DNA of 64,000 nucleotides, taken from IMG/VR virus record IMGVR_UViG_3300027788_001769, positions 1-64,000 of that record, one strand, 5' to 3'. The notes below the pieces were generated by a model, which worked only from the letters and a program-made list of their open reading frames with translations, was not told where the DNA came from and made no database searches. Shown piece by piece: positions 39,950 through 46,084 of the stretch; the first letter of the stretch is position 1, and each line of letters begins with the position of its first letter. The translations under genes and the position numbers were made by a program. This stretch comes from a virus.

Positions 39950-40600
39950 TTAATATAAAGCATGCTTTATAAAAAGCTTGCTATTTAATTCTTTAGGCAA
40001 TCTAGCTTTAAGCTTCCTCATTTCTTTAATGTTCTTTATATCGTCATCTATAAACAATATTTCATTATAGACGTGTAACAAGGATTCCATCACCTCCGCT
40101 TTTTTCTCGTAGTCAGTAACCCCTTTTAACCCCTTTACTCTTTTAGAGTCATTTATAGCGTATACGTTTTCTCTAGTCAATTTATCACCAATAGGTATTA
40201 ACTCACCTTCTTTATTTTTATACATCAACCAATCTTTTAACCCTTTAAATACTACATCCTCTGAAGACCTTGCTGTTAATATTCCTAACTGGTAACCCCT
40301 AGATAACAAGTCATCCATAATCTCTAGATTAGATACTATAGGTTCTGCTTGGGATATTGACCTTTTTATTTTTATCGGGTCTAAAAAGTCTCTATAGTCG
40401 TAATAGTTCTTATTTTCCTCTGTAACATCTTCATGAGCATAGTCTGATGGTGTTAATTTAACTTCACTACTATCTGTAGGTAAATTTCTATATATGTAAA
40501 TTTGTGAGGGTTTTAAAATAGTATCGTCAACATCTAATAATATTAATCTATTTTGATTAACACTTTCACTAATAATATTTTTTTTAACTATGTAAGGCAT
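39950..40600 (-). CDS. HAD-superfamily hydrolase with N-terminal leader, 216 aa
   Basis: HAD motif I is LILLDVDDTIL (about residues 20-30), motif II is the LGILTARSSEDV region (about 106-117), and motif IV is EILFIDDDIKNI near the C-terminus. The enzyme is probably a phosphatase; substrate unknown. The first residues MPYIVKKNIISES, before the catalytic domain, end in an ISE that resembles a T4 capsid-targeting peptide cleavage site. It is four bases downstream of a deoxyribosyltransferase-like gene and DeoC, suggesting a nucleoside or sugar-phosphate role. It ends the minus-strand arm of the accessory cassette. Confidence 0.75.
   Translation of the reverse strand: MPYIVKKNIISESVNQNRLILLDVDDTILKPSQIYIYRNLPTDSSEVKLTPSDYAHEDVTEENKNYYDYRDFLDPIKIKRSISQAEPIVSNLEIMDDLLSRGYQLGILTARSSEDVVFKGLKDWLMYKNKEGELIPIGDKLTRENVYAINDSKRVKGLKGVTDYEKKAEVMESLLHVYNEILFIDDDIKNIKEMRKLKARLPKELNSKLFIKHALY
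39954..39971. repeat. 18-bp perfect palindrome at the end of the HAD gene
   Basis: TATAAAGCATGCTTTATA is its own reverse complement and spans the last codons of the HAD hydrolase gene, starting two bases before its stop. No T run follows on either strand. It may be a transcript-end hairpin or a protein-binding site; the gap below it also has two ATATGC copies (about 39918 and 39933). Confidence 0.5.
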
Positions 40601-40603
40601 GTT

Positions 40604-41488
40604 TTATTTAAAATTAGATAGAAATGGGTATAACTCATCTTCTTGTAGTATCTTAGTTATAGAAGGCATCATCCACGGAGATATGTTAGATATTTTCATT
40701 CCATTAGTTAACCAGATAAAAACTTGTGAGTTTTTTAATGCACTTACTTGAGCCTCTCCGAAAGTACCAGCACCAGCAGTACCATCAAAATTAATTAGAT
40801 TTGTATCACACACTTTTAACATATACAAATCTTGAACCACTATTTGGTCTCTAATTTTTTCTCTAAATACAGCAAATTCTTCATCGTTTAGTTGGTTAGA
40901 TTTCCAGGCTTTAAATAACTTTTGGAACTCTTCGTCCTCATCTCTTACTGTTTCAGCTCTAAGAGGGTTTAATATAGCTGGTGTTTCTATCCCTTTAAAA
41001 TCCATAGTACCGTTAGTTACCAAATCAAGTAACCTATCACCCTTAACCACATGTCCTTCTCCGAAAAAATCCTCTATTTGTGTTCTCCAAGACATAGCGT
41101 CTGTAGCAAAATCTATTCCACCACCTAAATACATTGCTCTGGGAGTAAAAATTCCATTCATGTCCTTAGGGTCAAGAACCTTTAACATTTTTATAGTATC
41201 TTCCATTTCTTTAGCACTAGCGTTAATTAAGTAATCGGATGCTTTATCGGTTAAGTATCTTTTAAACCACTTACTTATTTGGTTAAATACATTTCCAGAA
41301 GATTTTAATTCTGGTATACCACCATATTCTATTTCTTCTAATTCCATAGATTGGTCTGAAGAAACTAACATTTCTAATTGATTTTGTAATTGACTTCTTA
41401 AATTGTATGGTAGTGAATAAATCTCATCGTATGTTGTAGTTTTATCTTCTTCATATTCCCTTAAAAGATTTTTAATTCTATTTCTCAT
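40604..41488 (-). CDS. Nucleoside 2-deoxyribosyltransferase-like protein with leader, 294 aa
   Basis: From about residue 115, YLGGGIDFATDAMSWRTQIE resembles the N-terminal motif of nucleoside 2-deoxyribosyltransferases (YLAGGI...WR). Later VQDLYMLKVCDTNLINF and GTFGEAQVSALKNSQVFIWL match the second half (DL..I..SD....GT..E...A). The first 110 residues are extra to that fold. The N-terminus MRNRIKNLLREYEED is the same kind of leader seen in the superoxide dismutase and kinase genes (M-R-x-x-I-K-x-x-L-[KR]-E). Its start touches the stop of deoC. Likely acts in deoxynucleoside recycling; specificity unknown. Confidence 0.6.
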   Translation of the reverse strand: MRNRIKNLLREYEEDKTTTYDEIYSLPYNLRSQLQNQLEMLVSSDQSMELEEIEYGGIPELKSSGNVFNQISKWFKRYLTDKASDYLINASAKEMEDTIKMLKVLDPKDMNGIFTPRAMYLGGGIDFATDAMSWRTQIEDFFGEGHVVKGDRLLDLVTNGTMDFKGIETPAILNPLRAETVRDEDEEFQKLFKAWKSNQLNDEEFAVFREKIRDQIVVQDLYMLKVCDTNLINFDGTAGAGTFGEAQVSALKNSQVFIWLTNGMKISNISPWMMPSITKILQEDELYPFLSNFK

Positions 41489-42294
41489 TAGTATTCCGTA
41501 TTATCTATTTTATTACCGACCATTATGTCTTTAGCTGCTGAAGTACCTAATCTAGTAGCTCCAGCATCAATCATTGCCCTGGCGTCATCTTTACTATAAA
41601 TACCACCAGATGCTTTAACTTGTAGTGGTCCTGAATTTGATTTCATAATACTTACGGCTTCTGGTGTCGCTCCTACTGGTCTACCATCATCAGTTTTATA
41701 AAACCCGGTTGAGGTCTTAACAAAAACATTCTTGGCATTTTGTACACCCACAGTCTCTATTACTATTTTACTAATTAACCTTGTAAGTTCAGATATTTCC
41801 TCATTGTTTAAAGCTGCAGACTCTATAATCCATTTAACCACTTTTCCGTCTTCTACACCAATAGCTGTGCCTTCACTAACCTCTTTCATTACTGTATCTA
41901 GGTCACCACCCTTAAAAGCTTTATAATCCACAACAAAATCTAATTCATCCACACCATCCTCTATAGCTTTTATAGCTTCATCCATTTTTGCACCCTGTCC
42001 AGTATCACCATTAGGAAACCCTATAACGGTACCAACTAACACATTAGCCCCCTTACTATCTATGAACTCACGAGCTGATTTAACGTACTCTGGTCTTAAC
42101 ATAACTAACTTCATGTTATGGTCTATCTCATCTTTAATTGTATTAAAAACTATATCGTCGGTTTCTTCCTCCCCTATACCTGCCTGTTCTGGGGTTTTTA
42201 AATAAGTAGAATCTAAGTAAGACGATAAATTATCCTCTTCTTGTTCCTTTATTACCATTAAAGACTTAATTCTTTTTATTTCTTCATTTAACAT
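41488..42294 (-). CDS. deoC: Deoxyribose-phosphate aldolase, with N-terminal leader
   Basis: DeoC cleaves 2-deoxyribose-5-phosphate to glyceraldehyde-3-phosphate and acetaldehyde. Visible marks are GTVIGFPNGDTG, ELDFVVDYKAF (catalytic Asp region), the Schiff-base lysine in FVKTSTGF (about 190) and the second lysine in VKASGGI (about 226), then RLGTSAA. The length of 268 residues is near the 259 of E. coli DeoC. The first about 20 residues (MLNEEIKRIKSLMVIKEQ) precede the enzyme fold and look like an added leader ending IKE. It is the first minus-strand gene from the divergent region at 42295-42350. Confidence 0.88.
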   Translation of the reverse strand: MLNEEIKRIKSLMVIKEQEEDNLSSYLDSTYLKTPEQAGIGEEETDDIVFNTIKDEIDHNMKLVMLRPEYVKSAREFIDSKGANVLVGTVIGFPNGDTGQGAKMDEAIKAIEDGVDELDFVVDYKAFKGGDLDTVMKEVSEGTAIGVEDGKVVKWIIESAALNNEEISELTRLISKIVIETVGVQNAKNVFVKTSTGFYKTDDGRPVGATPEAVSIMKSNSGPLQVKASGGIYSKDDARAMIDAGATRLGTSAAKDIMVGNKIDNTEY

Positions 42295-42310
42295 GTGGTT
42301 CTTGTTTGTA

Positions 42311-42327
42311 TATAAATATATTTATAA
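42311..42327. promoter_or_regulatory. Abutting divergent TATTTATA elements between deoC and sod
   Basis: Minus-strand TATTTATA at 42311-42318 lies 16 bases before the deoC ATG, and plus-strand TATTTATAA at 42319-42327 lies 23 bases before the superoxide dismutase ATG. The two copies are back to back in a 56-base gap and probably drive the two arms of the cassette. Confidence 0.5.
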
Positions 42328-42350
42328 TATATAAAATGTCATAGGAAACA

Positions 42351-43004
42351 ATGAGAGAGTTAATTAAAAAAATATTAAAGGAGGGGTTTTTGTCTGAGGC
42401 AAAAAAAACATTCTTCAAACGGGTCACTTTACCATATGATTATAATTCAGTTAAGGGTTTTGTTGGGTATGAGACAATGTGGGAACACTACAATAAACAC
42501 TATAAAGGTTACACCACCAAGTTAAACGAAGCTTTATCTAAAAGAAAAAACCCAAATACTGACATAGAAAAGATAATTAGGGGAATTAAAAACTACGATA
42601 CATTTACAAGAAATAACGCTGGTGGGTATTATAACCATAGTTTATTTTTTAGAGATTACATAACACCTAAAAAAACAGAACTATCAAAAGAACTAAAAAC
42701 TAAAATAAATAAGGACTTTGGTTCATTGGATAATTTTAAAAGACAGTTTGACGAAGAGTCAACAAAAGTATTTGGTTCTGGTTGGTGCTGGTTGGTGATT
42801 AAAAATGGGAGACTAAAAATTGTTAGTACCCCAAACCAAGATAACCCACTAATGGATAATATGGGTGAGCCTTTATTAGGTTTAGATGTTTGGGAACATG
42901 CATACTACTTAAACTACATGTCCGATAGAAAAAAATATATAAAGAACTTTTGGGGTGTGGTTAATTGGGCTAAGGTATCTAAAAAATATGTAGAACTAAA
43001 ATAA
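42351..43004 (+). CDS. sod: Superoxide dismutase, Mn/Fe family (Mn-type features), with N-terminal leader
   Basis: This 217-residue enzyme would convert superoxide to hydrogen peroxide and oxygen. All four metal ligands are seen: His50 in NKHYKGY, His96 in GGYYNHSLFF, Asp179 and His183 in GLDVWEHAYYL. Gln163 in STPNQDNP is in the position used by Mn-type enzymes. GSGWCWLVI and NFWGVVNW are further family marks. The first 16 residues (MRELIKKILKEGFLSE) precede the fold and are nearly the same as those of the P-loop kinase gene at 43737. No secretion signal is seen. It heads the plus-strand arm after a TATTTATAA element. Confidence 0.9.
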   Translation: MRELIKKILKEGFLSEAKKTFFKRVTLPYDYNSVKGFVGYETMWEHYNKHYKGYTTKLNEALSKRKNPNTDIEKIIRGIKNYDTFTRNNAGGYYNHSLFFRDYITPKKTELSKELKTKINKDFGSLDNFKRQFDEESTKVFGSGWCWLVIKNGRLKIVSTPNQDNPLMDNMGEPLLGLDVWEHAYYLNYMSDRKKYIKNFWGVVNWAKVSKKYVELK

Positions 43005-43035
43005 AATAAATAAACTAAAATCTATATTTATTAGT

Positions 43036-43737
43036 ATGAAGATAAGACTCACGGAATCACAAGTAAAAAAATTGATGATGTTCCAACCAGGTAATGAAAT
43101 TAACTTGGACGAAAAGAAAAAGGATGATAGGTGTACTAGAATAGCTAAACAAAAATACGATGTTTGGCCATCAGCTTATGCTTCTGGGGCAGTGGTTAGA
43201 TGTAGAGCTGGTAAGATTTGGAAAAAGTTAAAAGAGGAAGATGTTTTAGAAAAAACCGATTTCACAAAAGAAAAGGATAAAGGGTTACACGGTTGGTTTG
43301 AACGACAAGGAGCACCTGGAAAGACTGGTGGGTGGGTTGACTGTAATACTTGTAATAACGGTAAGTGTAAACCTTGTGGTAGGGGTGAAGGTGAAAAAAG
43401 AAAGAAACCTAGGTGTAGACCCACTCCAGCTGCTTGTAAGGGGTTTAAAAATGAAAGTATTATAGAAGAAGCTGAATATAGGGGTAGAAAAGTAAAATTA
43501 AATAAACCCACAAGAGGAGATGTTAAAAAGTTCAAGGTGTATGTTAAGAACGAAAAAGGAAATGTGGTTAAAGTTAATTTTGGTCACGGAGGAACTTCAG
43601 CTAAAAAGAAGGGTGAAAAAACCATGAGAATTAAAAAATCTAACCCAGCTAGAAGAAAATCGTTCAGAGCTAGACATAAATGTGATACCCCAGGTCCTAA
43701 ATGGAAAGCAAGGTATTGGTCTTGTAGAGCTTGGTAG
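43036..43737 (+). CDS. Basic Cys-containing protein with leader, possible DNA-associated internal protein, 233 aa
   Basis: The protein is strongly basic. It has KYDVWPSAYASGAVVRC (about 40-56), HGWFERQGAPGK, then WVDCNTCNNGKCKPCGRGEG and CRPTPAAC, and a C-terminal block FGHGGTSAKKKGEKTMR...SFRARHKC...RYWSCRAW. I recall these blocks from proteins of marine T4-like phages and some large algal viruses (annotated DUF5872-like); not searched. Cys pairs suggest Zn. The N-terminus MKIRLTESQVKKLMMF leads to NLDE, again a possible leader. High Lys/Arg content fits DNA binding inside a capsid, but this is inference. Its TAG overlaps the GTG start of the kinase gene. Confidence 0.6.
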   Translation: MKIRLTESQVKKLMMFQPGNEINLDEKKKDDRCTRIAKQKYDVWPSAYASGAVVRCRAGKIWKKLKEEDVLEKTDFTKEKDKGLHGWFERQGAPGKTGGWVDCNTCNNGKCKPCGRGEGEKRKKPRCRPTPAACKGFKNESIIEEAEYRGRKVKLNKPTRGDVKKFKVYVKNEKGNVVKVNFGHGGTSAKKKGEKTMRIKKSNPARRKSFRARHKCDTPGPKWKARYWSCRAW

Positions 43738-44390
43738 TGAGGGAATTAATTAAAAAAATACTAAGGGAAGAATTTCTGTCGGAGGAAAAGGTAATTGGGT
43801 TTGGACAACCAAATAATAACTTTGTTGTTATTGCTGGTGGACCAGGAGCTGGTAAAAGTTTTATAAGTGGTAACCTAATCAACCTAAATAATGTTAAGAA
43901 TTTTAATGTTGACCAAGTAAGGGTTATGACAGCAAAAAAATTATGGGGTGACGAGTGGGAAGAAAAAATATCCACACCAGAAGGGTATCAACAAATACTA
44001 GATATGACGTACACCACCTCAAACCCAAAAAACCTAACAGTAAAATTTTTAAAACAATTTTTACAACATGAAAGAAACCAACAAGTTAATGTGGTATATG
44101 ATGCTGGTGGTGGTCAAGAACAAGTAATGAAAGACATACATAACCTAGCTAAAGAAAATGGTTTTAATACTACACTAGTGTATGTAAGAACACCTTTAGA
44201 GTTAGCTCAACTTAGAAATGACGATAGACCTAGAAGTTTACCACCGGAAATGGTGGCACAATACCATGAACAAGTTAAAGATAATATGAGGAATATGATT
44301 CCTGTATTTGACAATGTGTGGACAGTAGATAATAAAGAATTGATTAACTTATCAGATAGACCATCTGATAATATAGAAAAAATTAAATAA
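43737..44390 (+). CDS. P-loop kinase (zeta-toxin/AAA_33-like) with leader, 217 aa
   Basis: I choose GTG at 43737, inside TAGTG with the upstream stop, because it gives MRELIKKILREEFLSEEK, closely matching the SOD leader. After the leader comes FVVIAGGPGAGKSF, a Walker A at residues 34-41, then NVDQVR, a lid-type RNDDRPRSLP (about 160) and VWTVDN at the end. This is the pattern of zeta-toxin-like or polynucleotide-kinase-like P-loop kinases. The substrate could be a nucleoside, a nucleic-acid end or a sugar; not resolved. It ends 8 bases inside the convergent HAD gene. Confidence 0.75.
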   Translation: MRELIKKILREEFLSEEKVIGFGQPNNNFVVIAGGPGAGKSFISGNLINLNNVKNFNVDQVRVMTAKKLWGDEWEEKISTPEGYQQILDMTYTTSNPKNLTVKFLKQFLQHERNQQVNVVYDAGGGQEQVMKDIHNLAKENGFNTTLVYVRTPLELAQLRNDDRPRSLPPEMVAQYHEQVKDNMRNMIPVFDNVWTVDNKELINLSDRPSDNIEKIK

Positions 44391-44820
44391 CTTTATTTAT
44401 TTTTAATTTAATTTTTGGGTATTTCATACAATAACTAATCACATCATCAATATGTTTATCCTTATCCTCCCAGTACTCTATTTCAGTAGTTTCAGGGTAT
44501 TTTTTTATTAAACTCTCTACTCTTTTCCCTTTAGACCTATTACCATCTTTACCTACTATAAATAATTTTTCATTAAAATTAATGTTTTTAGTTTTTAATA
44601 TGGACATAACCTCATCCTCAACACTACCTATTCTATTTGTTAAAAGAACAGTAATTACTTTTTTTTCATTAGACTCACTAAAGTATTTTTTTAGTGTTTC
44701 TTTATTAAATGTAAAGTCCCATTTTTTTGGGTCTAGGCTGTCTTTAGTGTCAAGATAAGTGCTGTCTTCATAAGGGGTTTCGACTAAGGTATTGTCAAAA
44801 TCGAACATAGATAATTTCAT
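44383..44820 (-). CDS. HAD-family phosphatase, SAK RNA-repair-like, 145 aa
   Basis: Motif I is SMFDFDNTLVETP at the N-terminus, motif II is TVLLTNR (about 57-63), and EYWEDKDKHIDDV (about 115-127) supplies the acidic motif. The order and spacing recall the small HAD domain described as 'Swiss Army Knife RNA repair-like'. It is convergent with the P-loop kinase and is transcribed from a Bacteroidota-type promoter at 44843-44873, so it is probably expressed by the host RNA polymerase early in infection. It has no leader before motif I, unlike the cassette genes. Confidence 0.7.
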   Translation of the reverse strand: MKLSMFDFDNTLVETPYEDSTYLDTKDSLDPKKWDFTFNKETLKKYFSESNEKKVITVLLTNRIGSVEDEVMSILKTKNINFNEKLFIVGKDGNRSKGKRVESLIKKYPETTEIEYWEDKDKHIDDVISYCMKYPKIKLKINKVI

Positions 44821-45271: not shown

Positions 45272-46084
45272 TTAGTTCATGTTTAAGTCATCATCTAAAT
45301 CCTCTAACTCCTCTGGTTCATCTAAATCTGGATAAGGTATTGGTTTAGCTATAGAATCGTAACTTCTTGGTCTTTTTTGTGATTGTCCAGACCCCATAAG
45401 TTCAGCAGTATAAGTCATAAAGTTACTTAATTTAACCAAAGTATTCTCTATTTGTTTTCTAGTCTTAGGGTCTTTAACAAACTCGTAACCTTTTTTAATG
45501 CTATTAATAATGTTTTCTAGGCCTGATGCAGCAGACTCACCTGGGTGATTTCTATTACTACCACTACCGTAGAACGATTCAGCTATTATTTTAGAATTGT
45601 AATTTGATAATTTTAAACCACTTCCTTTTCTGGCTTTTATTGATTCTCTTATTACTTTGTAAGATTTATTTAATGATTTAACTAAATTGTTTTTTTCTTC
45701 TAGGTACTTATCAACAACTTTTTCACCAGCTGTAGCTCCCATAGCTCCCGCAGCAATCTTTGCTAAATTAGCCCACATTTCATCTAAATCTTCTTCAGGT
45801 TCATCAACTTCATCTAATTCACTAGGTGATTCACTATCCATGTAATAATCGTCACCAGACTGAGTTACCATACCTTGAGCGTCTGAATCCCCAATCGACA
45901 GGTCCCCATCACCAAAGTTCTCACCCATCTCGAACTCTTCGTAATCCATATAGTTTTCTAATAAATTATCAAACTGAGCTGGTGTTAATTTTATGTCACT
46001 AGGTTTTTTACCTGAATGTTCTCTTAATGATAGTCTTAACCCTAACCTATCTACTATTTCTGATTTTTTAATATTCCGTTCCAT
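45272..46084 (-). CDS. Acidic helical protein downstream of tail sheath, 270 aa
   Basis: Not recognised. The protein has an acidic N-terminal third (SELDEVDEPEEDLDEMWAN), a small hydrophobic Ala/Gly helix (LAKIAAGAMGATAGEKVVD), a basic helical middle and an acidic tail (LDEPEELEDLDDDLNMN). No enzymatic motif is visible. It starts 11 bases after the sheath stop and ends at a bidirectional terminator, so it is cotranscribed with sheath. Possible scaffold or internal protein by composition. Confidence 0.55.
   Translation of the reverse strand: MERNIKKSEIVDRLGLRLSLREHSGKKPSDIKLTPAQFDNLLENYMDYEEFEMGENFGDGDLSIGDSDAQGMVTQSGDDYYMDSESPSELDEVDEPEEDLDEMWANLAKIAAGAMGATAGEKVVDKYLEEKNNLVKSLNKSYKVIRESIKARKGSGLKLSNYNSKIIAESFYGSGSNRNHPGESAASGLENIINSIKKGYEFVKDPKTRKQIENTLVKLSNFMTYTAELMGSGQSQKRPRSYDSIAKPIPYPDLDEPEELEDLDDDLNMN

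Follow-up and report, generated by a model that had tools for sequence, protein, structure and literature searches.

Capsid-targeting-like leaders on six neighbouring proteins of an environmental T4-related phage, including a superoxide dismutase and a deoxyribose-phosphate aldolase, suggest enzyme loading into the phage head

The internal proteins of bacteriophage T4 enter the head by means of a short N-terminal capsid-targeting sequence (CTS). Ten residues suffice for targeting, cleavage by the prohead protease gp21 follows L/I-x-E, and separate residues govern targeting and cutting (PMC9026906). The precursor of internal protein IPI has 95 residues and the mature form 76 (PMC3012670), which places the cut after ITE. 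The principle of a CTS coupled to gp21 is thus already known from T4, and reviews suggest that T4-like phages may use it to package a variety of proteins (PMC9026906); known examples of proteins packaged in this way are few. The present analysis concerns bases 1-64000 (hereafter the window) of the 136,768-bp virus record IMGVR_UViG_3300027788_001769, environmental DNA of a T4-related phage, and a group of six genes within it that diverge from a 56-bp intergenic region. A deoxyribose-phosphate aldolase (DeoC), a protein possibly related to nucleoside deoxyribosyltransferases (NDT-like) and a HAD-superfamily protein are encoded leftward, and a superoxide dismutase (SOD), a basic Cys-rich protein and a P-loop kinase rightward. 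With a probability of roughly 0.86, the short leaders of these proteins are cleavable capsid-targeting sequences like those of the T4 internal proteins, through which the enzymes are taken into the head and delivered.

A check of the open reading frames (ORFs) of the window found the six genes and their N-termini where the first-pass annotation had placed them, each protein beginning with a short leader that ends in [LIV]xE, namely FLSE in SOD and in the kinase, LLRE in the NDT-like protein, VIKE in DeoC, IISE in the HAD protein and NLDE in the Cys-rich protein. The same annotation took the leader to be common to the whole set, which stands for SOD, the kinase and the NDT-like protein, all bearing one type (type A, M[KR]xLI[KR]xIL[KR]E), and does not extend to the other three. 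The Cys-rich protein carries a second type (type B, MKI[KR]LTE[ST]Q), present also on 18 further protein clusters, and DeoC and the HAD protein have leaders of their own that belong to neither type.

The strongest evidence is the swapping of leaders. Homologues of one enzyme carry differing leaders, with [LIV]xE kept at the junction in six families, and 58 of 58 leader-bearing homologues (related sequences, some of them near-identical) have [LIVM]xE there, at a near-fixed distance in most families. The SOD junctions of related phages read FLSE/AKK, IIAE/AKK, LLTE/AKK, LVTE/AKK, LLVE/AKK and LLTE/VKK (a slash marks the junction), further SOD relatives begin with the different leader MKIRITESQYNLILE/GKE or carry ...VVLE/AKK, and residue E16 is invariant across ten homologues whose leaders differ. 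Kinase junctions are FLSE/EKV, LLLE/EKV, LLYE/EKV and MVTESQIEKILMTE/AKV. That of the Cys-rich protein is INLDE/KKK in the window and RYLNE/AKKK or ILLQE/AKKK elsewhere, while some of its relatives bear type A-like leaders (MKNIIKKILREETRYLNE/AKKK and MKHIIKEILLQE/AKKK) and the one in Flavobacterium phage immuto reads IIKEILSE/KKADRC. The HAD family shows IISE, TLSE, LLSE, VLNE and ILKE at a constant distance of 6, relatives of DeoC show IKE, IRE and LTE, and E11 of the NDT-like protein is invariant in seven homologues with differing leaders. In one case a type B protein of 73 residues and a type A protein of 69 are visibly one and the same, and residue 11 is Glu in 15 of 15 leaders that had not been selected at that residue. 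The earlier caveat that [LI]xE may arise by chance is thus countered, since the leaders swap while the junction Glu does not vary.

The Pfam and PDB matches of SOD, DeoC and the kinase start after the leader residues, in agreement with the earlier observation that the folds begin past the leaders. SOD (PF02777, E 9e-41; PF00081, E 3e-14) has domain and structure matches beginning at residues 20-26, with PDB SODs aligning from residue 20, and its AlphaFold model contains a helix at residues 2-11 and a low-confidence stretch at 4-23 ahead of the fold. DeoC (PF01791, E 3e-7; PDB deoxyribose-phosphate aldolase, E 2e-23) aligns to Pfam and PDB entries from about residue 22 at the earliest and possesses both catalytic motifs, KTSTGF and KASGG. 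The kinase (PF13671, E 2e-10) has its P-loop at residue 34, and it starts at a GTG overlapping the stop of the Cys-rich protein gene, a start position shared by the nearest relatives, mostly as ATG. The HAD protein has weak Pfam HAD-type matches and a match to PHROG 415, polynucleotide kinase (E 5e-8); PDB sequence searches with this protein and with the NDT-like protein returned nothing significant. The label deoxyribosyltransferase, given earlier to the latter, is weakly supported by a fold match, as Foldseek with the AlphaFold model (low confidence, pLDDT 62.5) found several NDT or CMP-glycosidase structures, all with E of at least 0.3 and with 0.3 as the best value of the family. The basic Cys-rich protein has no Pfam match and belongs with PHROG 7595, a family without assigned function.

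Several controls bear on the specificity of the leaders. When a leader profile was applied to every possible start in the whole record, SOD (29.3), the kinase (28.5) and the NDT-like protein (14.6) were the top three, against a best score of 9.6 on the reversed sequence. A degenerate DNA pattern encoding M[KR]xLI[KR]xIL[KR]EE matched at least 120 stretches in IMG/VR contigs, where a control pattern with the same codons permuted had no match. The tags lie at true N-termini; in most cases a stop codon closely precedes the tag, with no ATG ahead of it. Among the matches listed, the 158 tagged proteins with enough sequence form 50 clusters when grouped on the sequence past residue 14; known domains are rare in them (glucosaminidase, LysM, LRR, AAA_33 kinase and Acb1-like). 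Of 84,980 cellular genomes, only one contig was matched by the type A pattern, QCKH01000009.1 (63,985 bp) of a Prochlorococcus single-cell genome, which appears identical to IMGVR_UViG_2716884754_000003 (63,985 bp, with gp21 and gp23 present) and hence to be viral; it may reflect a host link or a co-sorted virus. The contrary case raised by the first-pass annotation, cellular homologues with the same N-termini, came out negative: the single match is this viral contig, and PDB homologues align past the leader. The hydrophobic moment of the leader falls between the 97th and 99.9th percentiles in five of the six proteins. The type A DNA pattern is absent from immuto, T4, KP27 and PA5oct, and a looser pattern with a free gap before LxE/A was noisy and yielded few new true cargo proteins. 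A comparison of LxE frequency within proteins (15 related sequences) was set aside because the sequences are homologous.

The head machinery that such leaders would require is encoded in the same record. The prohead protease, which had been expected outside the window, is a gp21 gene at genome positions 105873-106661 (-) (PF03420, E 2.2e-27, match 106005-106484; PHROG 207 head maturation protease, E 7e-46), adjoining a scaffold-like gene and the capsid gene gp23 (102527-104389; PF07068, E 4e-63). The proposed comparison with the capsid cleavage site gave a matching [LI]NE in gp23, the junctions of the tagged proteins being [LIV]xE: the N-terminus HLINE/ATSADASG aligns with FLTE/AEIGG of T4, and [LI]NE is kept in 20 of the 20 major capsid proteins of the group that cover the N-terminal region, in alignment with LTE/A of T4. 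MRELIKKILKEGFLSEAKKT and the gp23 peptide HLINEATSAD are candidate substrate peptides for gp21. Among 46 records of the tagged families, 22 have gp23 and 21 of these also gp21, the single remaining one having its gp23 at the very edge of the contig. No T4 portal match was found in the 25 records without gp21, in a portal search without a positive control of its own, and these records are consistent with fragments outside the head module. PF03420 is encoded by all nine cultured phages examined.

The proposal of the first-pass annotation, a modular capsid-targeting tag, is therefore supported by gp21 and the [LI]NE of gp23 in the record, by leader swapping and by the invariant junction Glu. The leader would form a short N-terminal helix, in most cases amphipathic, and bind to the scaffolding core of the prohead. 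The attached enzyme would be enclosed as the shell forms, and the gp21-family protease would cut after the Glu of [LIV]xE, so that the mature enzyme lies free amid the packaged DNA. SOD, DeoC, the kinase, the HAD phosphatase, the NDT-like protein and the basic Cys-rich protein would then enter the host alongside the DNA and be active during the first minutes of infection, ahead of phage gene expression. A role of SOD could be to lessen oxidative stress on entry, and nucleotides or nucleic-acid ends could be the substrates of DeoC, the NDT-like protein, the kinase and the HAD protein. The leaders behave as exchangeable modules, one enzyme with several leaders and one leader on about 50 unrelated clusters. 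The division of targeting and cutting seen in T4 fits here as a variable amphipathic helix followed by a fixed [LIV]xE.

Some points weigh against this interpretation. The leader of the HAD protein is not amphipathic (42nd percentile), a leaderless phage SOD exists in Vibrio phage 2.275.O, and type A leaders show no recognisable homology to MKTYQEFIAE of T4. Many type A proteins lack a second [LI]xE beyond the ILKE or ILRE inside the leader, so that the exact cut site is uncertain. By analogy with T4, where targeting can occur without cutting, the cleavage step may be separable, and for the present virus and its close relatives packaging, cleavage and injection are predictions from sequence.

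The alternative that survives best, an improbable one, is that the enzymes are loaded into the head and serve the particle or the assembly core, with host delivery being incidental. The same leader, junction and protease evidence fits, and a SOD protecting packaged DNA or a basic Cys-rich protein neutralising DNA charge would suit such a role; however, DeoC, the kinase and the HAD protein need small-molecule or nucleic-acid substrates of the cell, and the T4 internal proteins are injected (PMC9026906, PMC3012670). It is very improbable that the leaders are docking helices that are never cut and join the enzymes in one complex or to another phage structure. The clustering of the genes and the amphipathic helix in five of the six proteins would agree with docking, but the helix varies freely while [LIV]xE is constant, the tag occurs on about 50 unrelated clusters and not on one pathway, and the relatives in phages KP27 and CC2 have T4-type CTSs. 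Cargo enzymes of bacterial microcompartments (BMC) also bear short N-terminal amphipathic helices, and the leaders could on that ground be encapsulation peptides of a protein-shelled organelle of this type; the probability is negligible, as the shell protein PF00936 is absent from this record and six large relatives (Escherichia coli and Synechococcus elongatus controls being positive) and the leader pattern is essentially absent from cellular genomes. Chance mimicry by Lys/Ile/Leu/Glu-rich N-termini, for which the AT-rich record and the frequency of [LIVM]xE (1.8% of positions in the enzyme bodies) could speak, is already refuted by the permuted and reversed controls and the invariant Glu of swapped leaders.

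The layout of the locus is given in Table 1. The two TATAAATA boxes lie 25 nt before the DeoC start and 33 nt before the SOD start, and such a pair would have the genes on either side expressed late, which packaging calls for; the argument is weak because the octamers are not clearly above the expectation from base composition (43 on both strands of the whole record against about 38). The adjoining HAD-type gene at 44383-44820 (-) starts at its catalytic motif (MKLSMFDFDNT) without a leader, and tagging is therefore not universal among enzymes here.

Table 1. Genes of the divergent group and the sequence element between them (window positions; a slash marks the junction)
Feature	Position	Strand	Leader or remark
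HAD-superfamily phosphatase-like protein	39950-40600	-	leader MPYIVKKNIISE/SVNQ, codons 40565-40600
Conserved phage protein, possibly NDT-like	40604-41488	-	type A leader MRNRIKNLLRE/YEED, codons 41456-41488
DeoC-like deoxyribose-phosphate aldolase	41488-42294	-	leader MLNEEIKRIKSLMVIKE/QEED, codons 42244-42294
Palindrome TATAAATATATTTATA	42311-42326	.	two divergent T4-late-promoter-like boxes TATAAATA, consensus match only
Fe/Mn superoxide dismutase	42351-43004	+	type A leader MRELIKKILKEGFLSE/AKKT, codons 42351-42398
Basic Cys-rich protein	43036-43737	+	type B leader MKIRLTESQVKKLMMFQPGNEINLDE/KKKD, codons 43036-43113
P-loop kinase (AAA_33/zeta-like)	43737-44390	+	type A leader MRELIKKILREEFLSE/EKVI, GTG start, codons 43737-43784

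Further candidate leaders occur in the same record at genome positions 64633-65001 (+) (MKLNDTLKTLLLE/V) and 112131-113489 (-) (MKKDILITKEQLDKLSYSMNE/A), and a dUTPase at 69004-69633 (+) has a 75-residue N-terminal extension. Two acidic proteins encoded far apart, at 45272-46084 (-) and 115153-116571 (-), both contain EMWANLAKIAAGA, the former also having the leader-like start SLRE/HSG. By eye, a long gene run at 65815-92949 resembles glycosyltransferases and sugar-nucleotide enzymes, and DnaK-like and Clp ATPase-like genes lie near 118-122 kb. In three related contigs, L103 (1928-3451, -), L112 and L135, SOD has 508 residues and the leader MSIETKTDVLKNQIILAEQKDPLLTE, with the SOD domain followed by a site RILTE/QDS and a second domain without a Pfam match that looks nuclease-like by eye (DFYGIDGYIDF...QIKP); it is possibly a polyprotein from which the prohead protease would produce two mature proteins. 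A type A leader also precedes a 2H-phosphoesterase-like protein (L060, 2527-3069, +) with a weak match to the anti-CBASS protein Acb1 (E 4.5e-4, under the Pfam cut-off), and is a candidate for a counter-defence protein delivered from the head. In contigs L021-L140, 61 of 163 tagged genes have TATTTAT in the 20 nt preceding them, compared with 169 of 941 other ORFs, possibly as a promoter very near the start codon or as co-transferred DNA.

Relatives of the window proteins were found in cultured phages. The kinase homologue KP27_252 of Klebsiella phage KP27 (Slopekvirus) begins MKSFKQFTESTLTE/ALITF, a T4-type CTS close to MKTFKEFTSTTTPVSTITE/A of T4 IPI, and that of Aeromonas phage CC2 (gp019, Ceceduovirus) begins MKMKFSEFVQLE/EKLM; their homology to the window kinase has tblastn E values of about 1e-6 to 5e-3. 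A T4-CTS DNA pattern (M-K-x-[FY]-x-[EQ]-F) retrieved IPI, IPII, IPIII, gp61.1 and one 20-codon frame from T4, and from KP27 the kinase gene only. T4 gene 61.1 (NC_000866, 18966-19130), annotated as hypothetical, has the CTS-like start MKTFKEFIKE/DMVAG. The gp21 substrate gp24 of T4 begins MAKINELLRE, much like MRNRIKNLLRE of the window. The SOD homologue gp223 of Pseudomonas phage PA5oct begins MNDSIKKYISIAE/AASS, with a SIAE/A junction; gp21 is present in that genome, and the protein is annotated as detected by electrospray ionisation tandem mass spectrometry (ESI-MS/MS), a note which in the stretch inspected goes mostly with portal, protease, major capsid, sheath and other structural proteins and with a few enzymes. 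The literature searched contained no virion study that names the PA5oct SOD. SOD matches in GenBank records whose titles name phages of Listeria, Staphylococcus, Salmonella and other hosts are likely bacterial contamination and were not used. With relatives in three cultured phages (KP27, PA5oct and immuto), the proposal can therefore be tested without cultivating the environmental virus. The mature proteins are predicted to begin ALITFGGRAYP in KP27_252, KKADRCLRIAR in gp084 of immuto and AASSVKKIP in gp223 of PA5oct.

A tag searchable by sequence marks about 50 (type A) and 18 (type B) clusters in uncultured phages, nearly all without known function, and offers a direct route to listing what such phages may inject, with predicted mature N-termini. 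It further suggests that antioxidant and nucleotide enzymes are delivered from the head, and such cargo would be unusual. The balance of evidence leans towards a lineage of uncultured T4-superfamily phages in which two interchangeable leader classes, each with [LIV]xE, load large sets of mostly uncharacterised effectors and enzymes, and in which the tag alone would identify the proteins that enter environmental bacteria early, within the first minutes after infection, including a possible anti-CBASS protein (Acb1/2H-phosphoesterase-like). A search of the open-access literature that mentions 'capsid targeting sequence' found neither these leader classes nor the enzyme cargo nor their spread among uncultured phages, subscription literature lying outside its scope.

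Comparison with described systems places the locus nearest to IPI, IPII, IPIII and Alt of T4, whose gp21-cut CTS is likewise a short N-terminal leader ending in [LI]xE on unrelated proteins, with a gp21-family protease and a gp23 capsid protein encoded in the same genome and with diverse cargo in which only the leader is conserved (PMC3012670). The leader here is MRELIKKIL..LSE and not MKTYQEFIAE (MK[ST][FY]xEF is matched only by the KP27 kinase), the cargo includes recognisable metabolic enzymes such as SOD and DeoC, and the leader class spans about 50 protein clusters of uncultured phages. As the leaders belong to a different sequence class, they are therefore regarded as a variant that would work like the T4 CTS and not as a T4 internal protein. 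KP27_252 and CC2 gp019 share the homologous kinase domain and a leader ending LTE/A or QLE/E, but the leader is of the T4 type (MKSFKQF, MKMKFSEF). PA5oct gp223 has the SOD fold, a leader ending in SIAE/A, gp21 in its genome and the ESI-MS/MS annotation, and differs in its 26% identity, its placement in the Arenbergviridae and its leader, which is not type A. The Dar proteins of P1 (DarB) also carry an N-terminal signal that takes cargo into the head for delivery and suffices for a reporter (PMC9024508), whereas no consensus is common to them and they are not gp21 or LxE dependent as far as is known. Ejection proteins of phiKZ and SPN3US similarly lose propeptides to a gp21-related prohead protease; the phiKZ motif is S/A-x-E (PMC9026906), whereas the junctions here mostly have L/I/V at P3, and those proteins form a large internal protein mass and not a set of small tagged enzymes.

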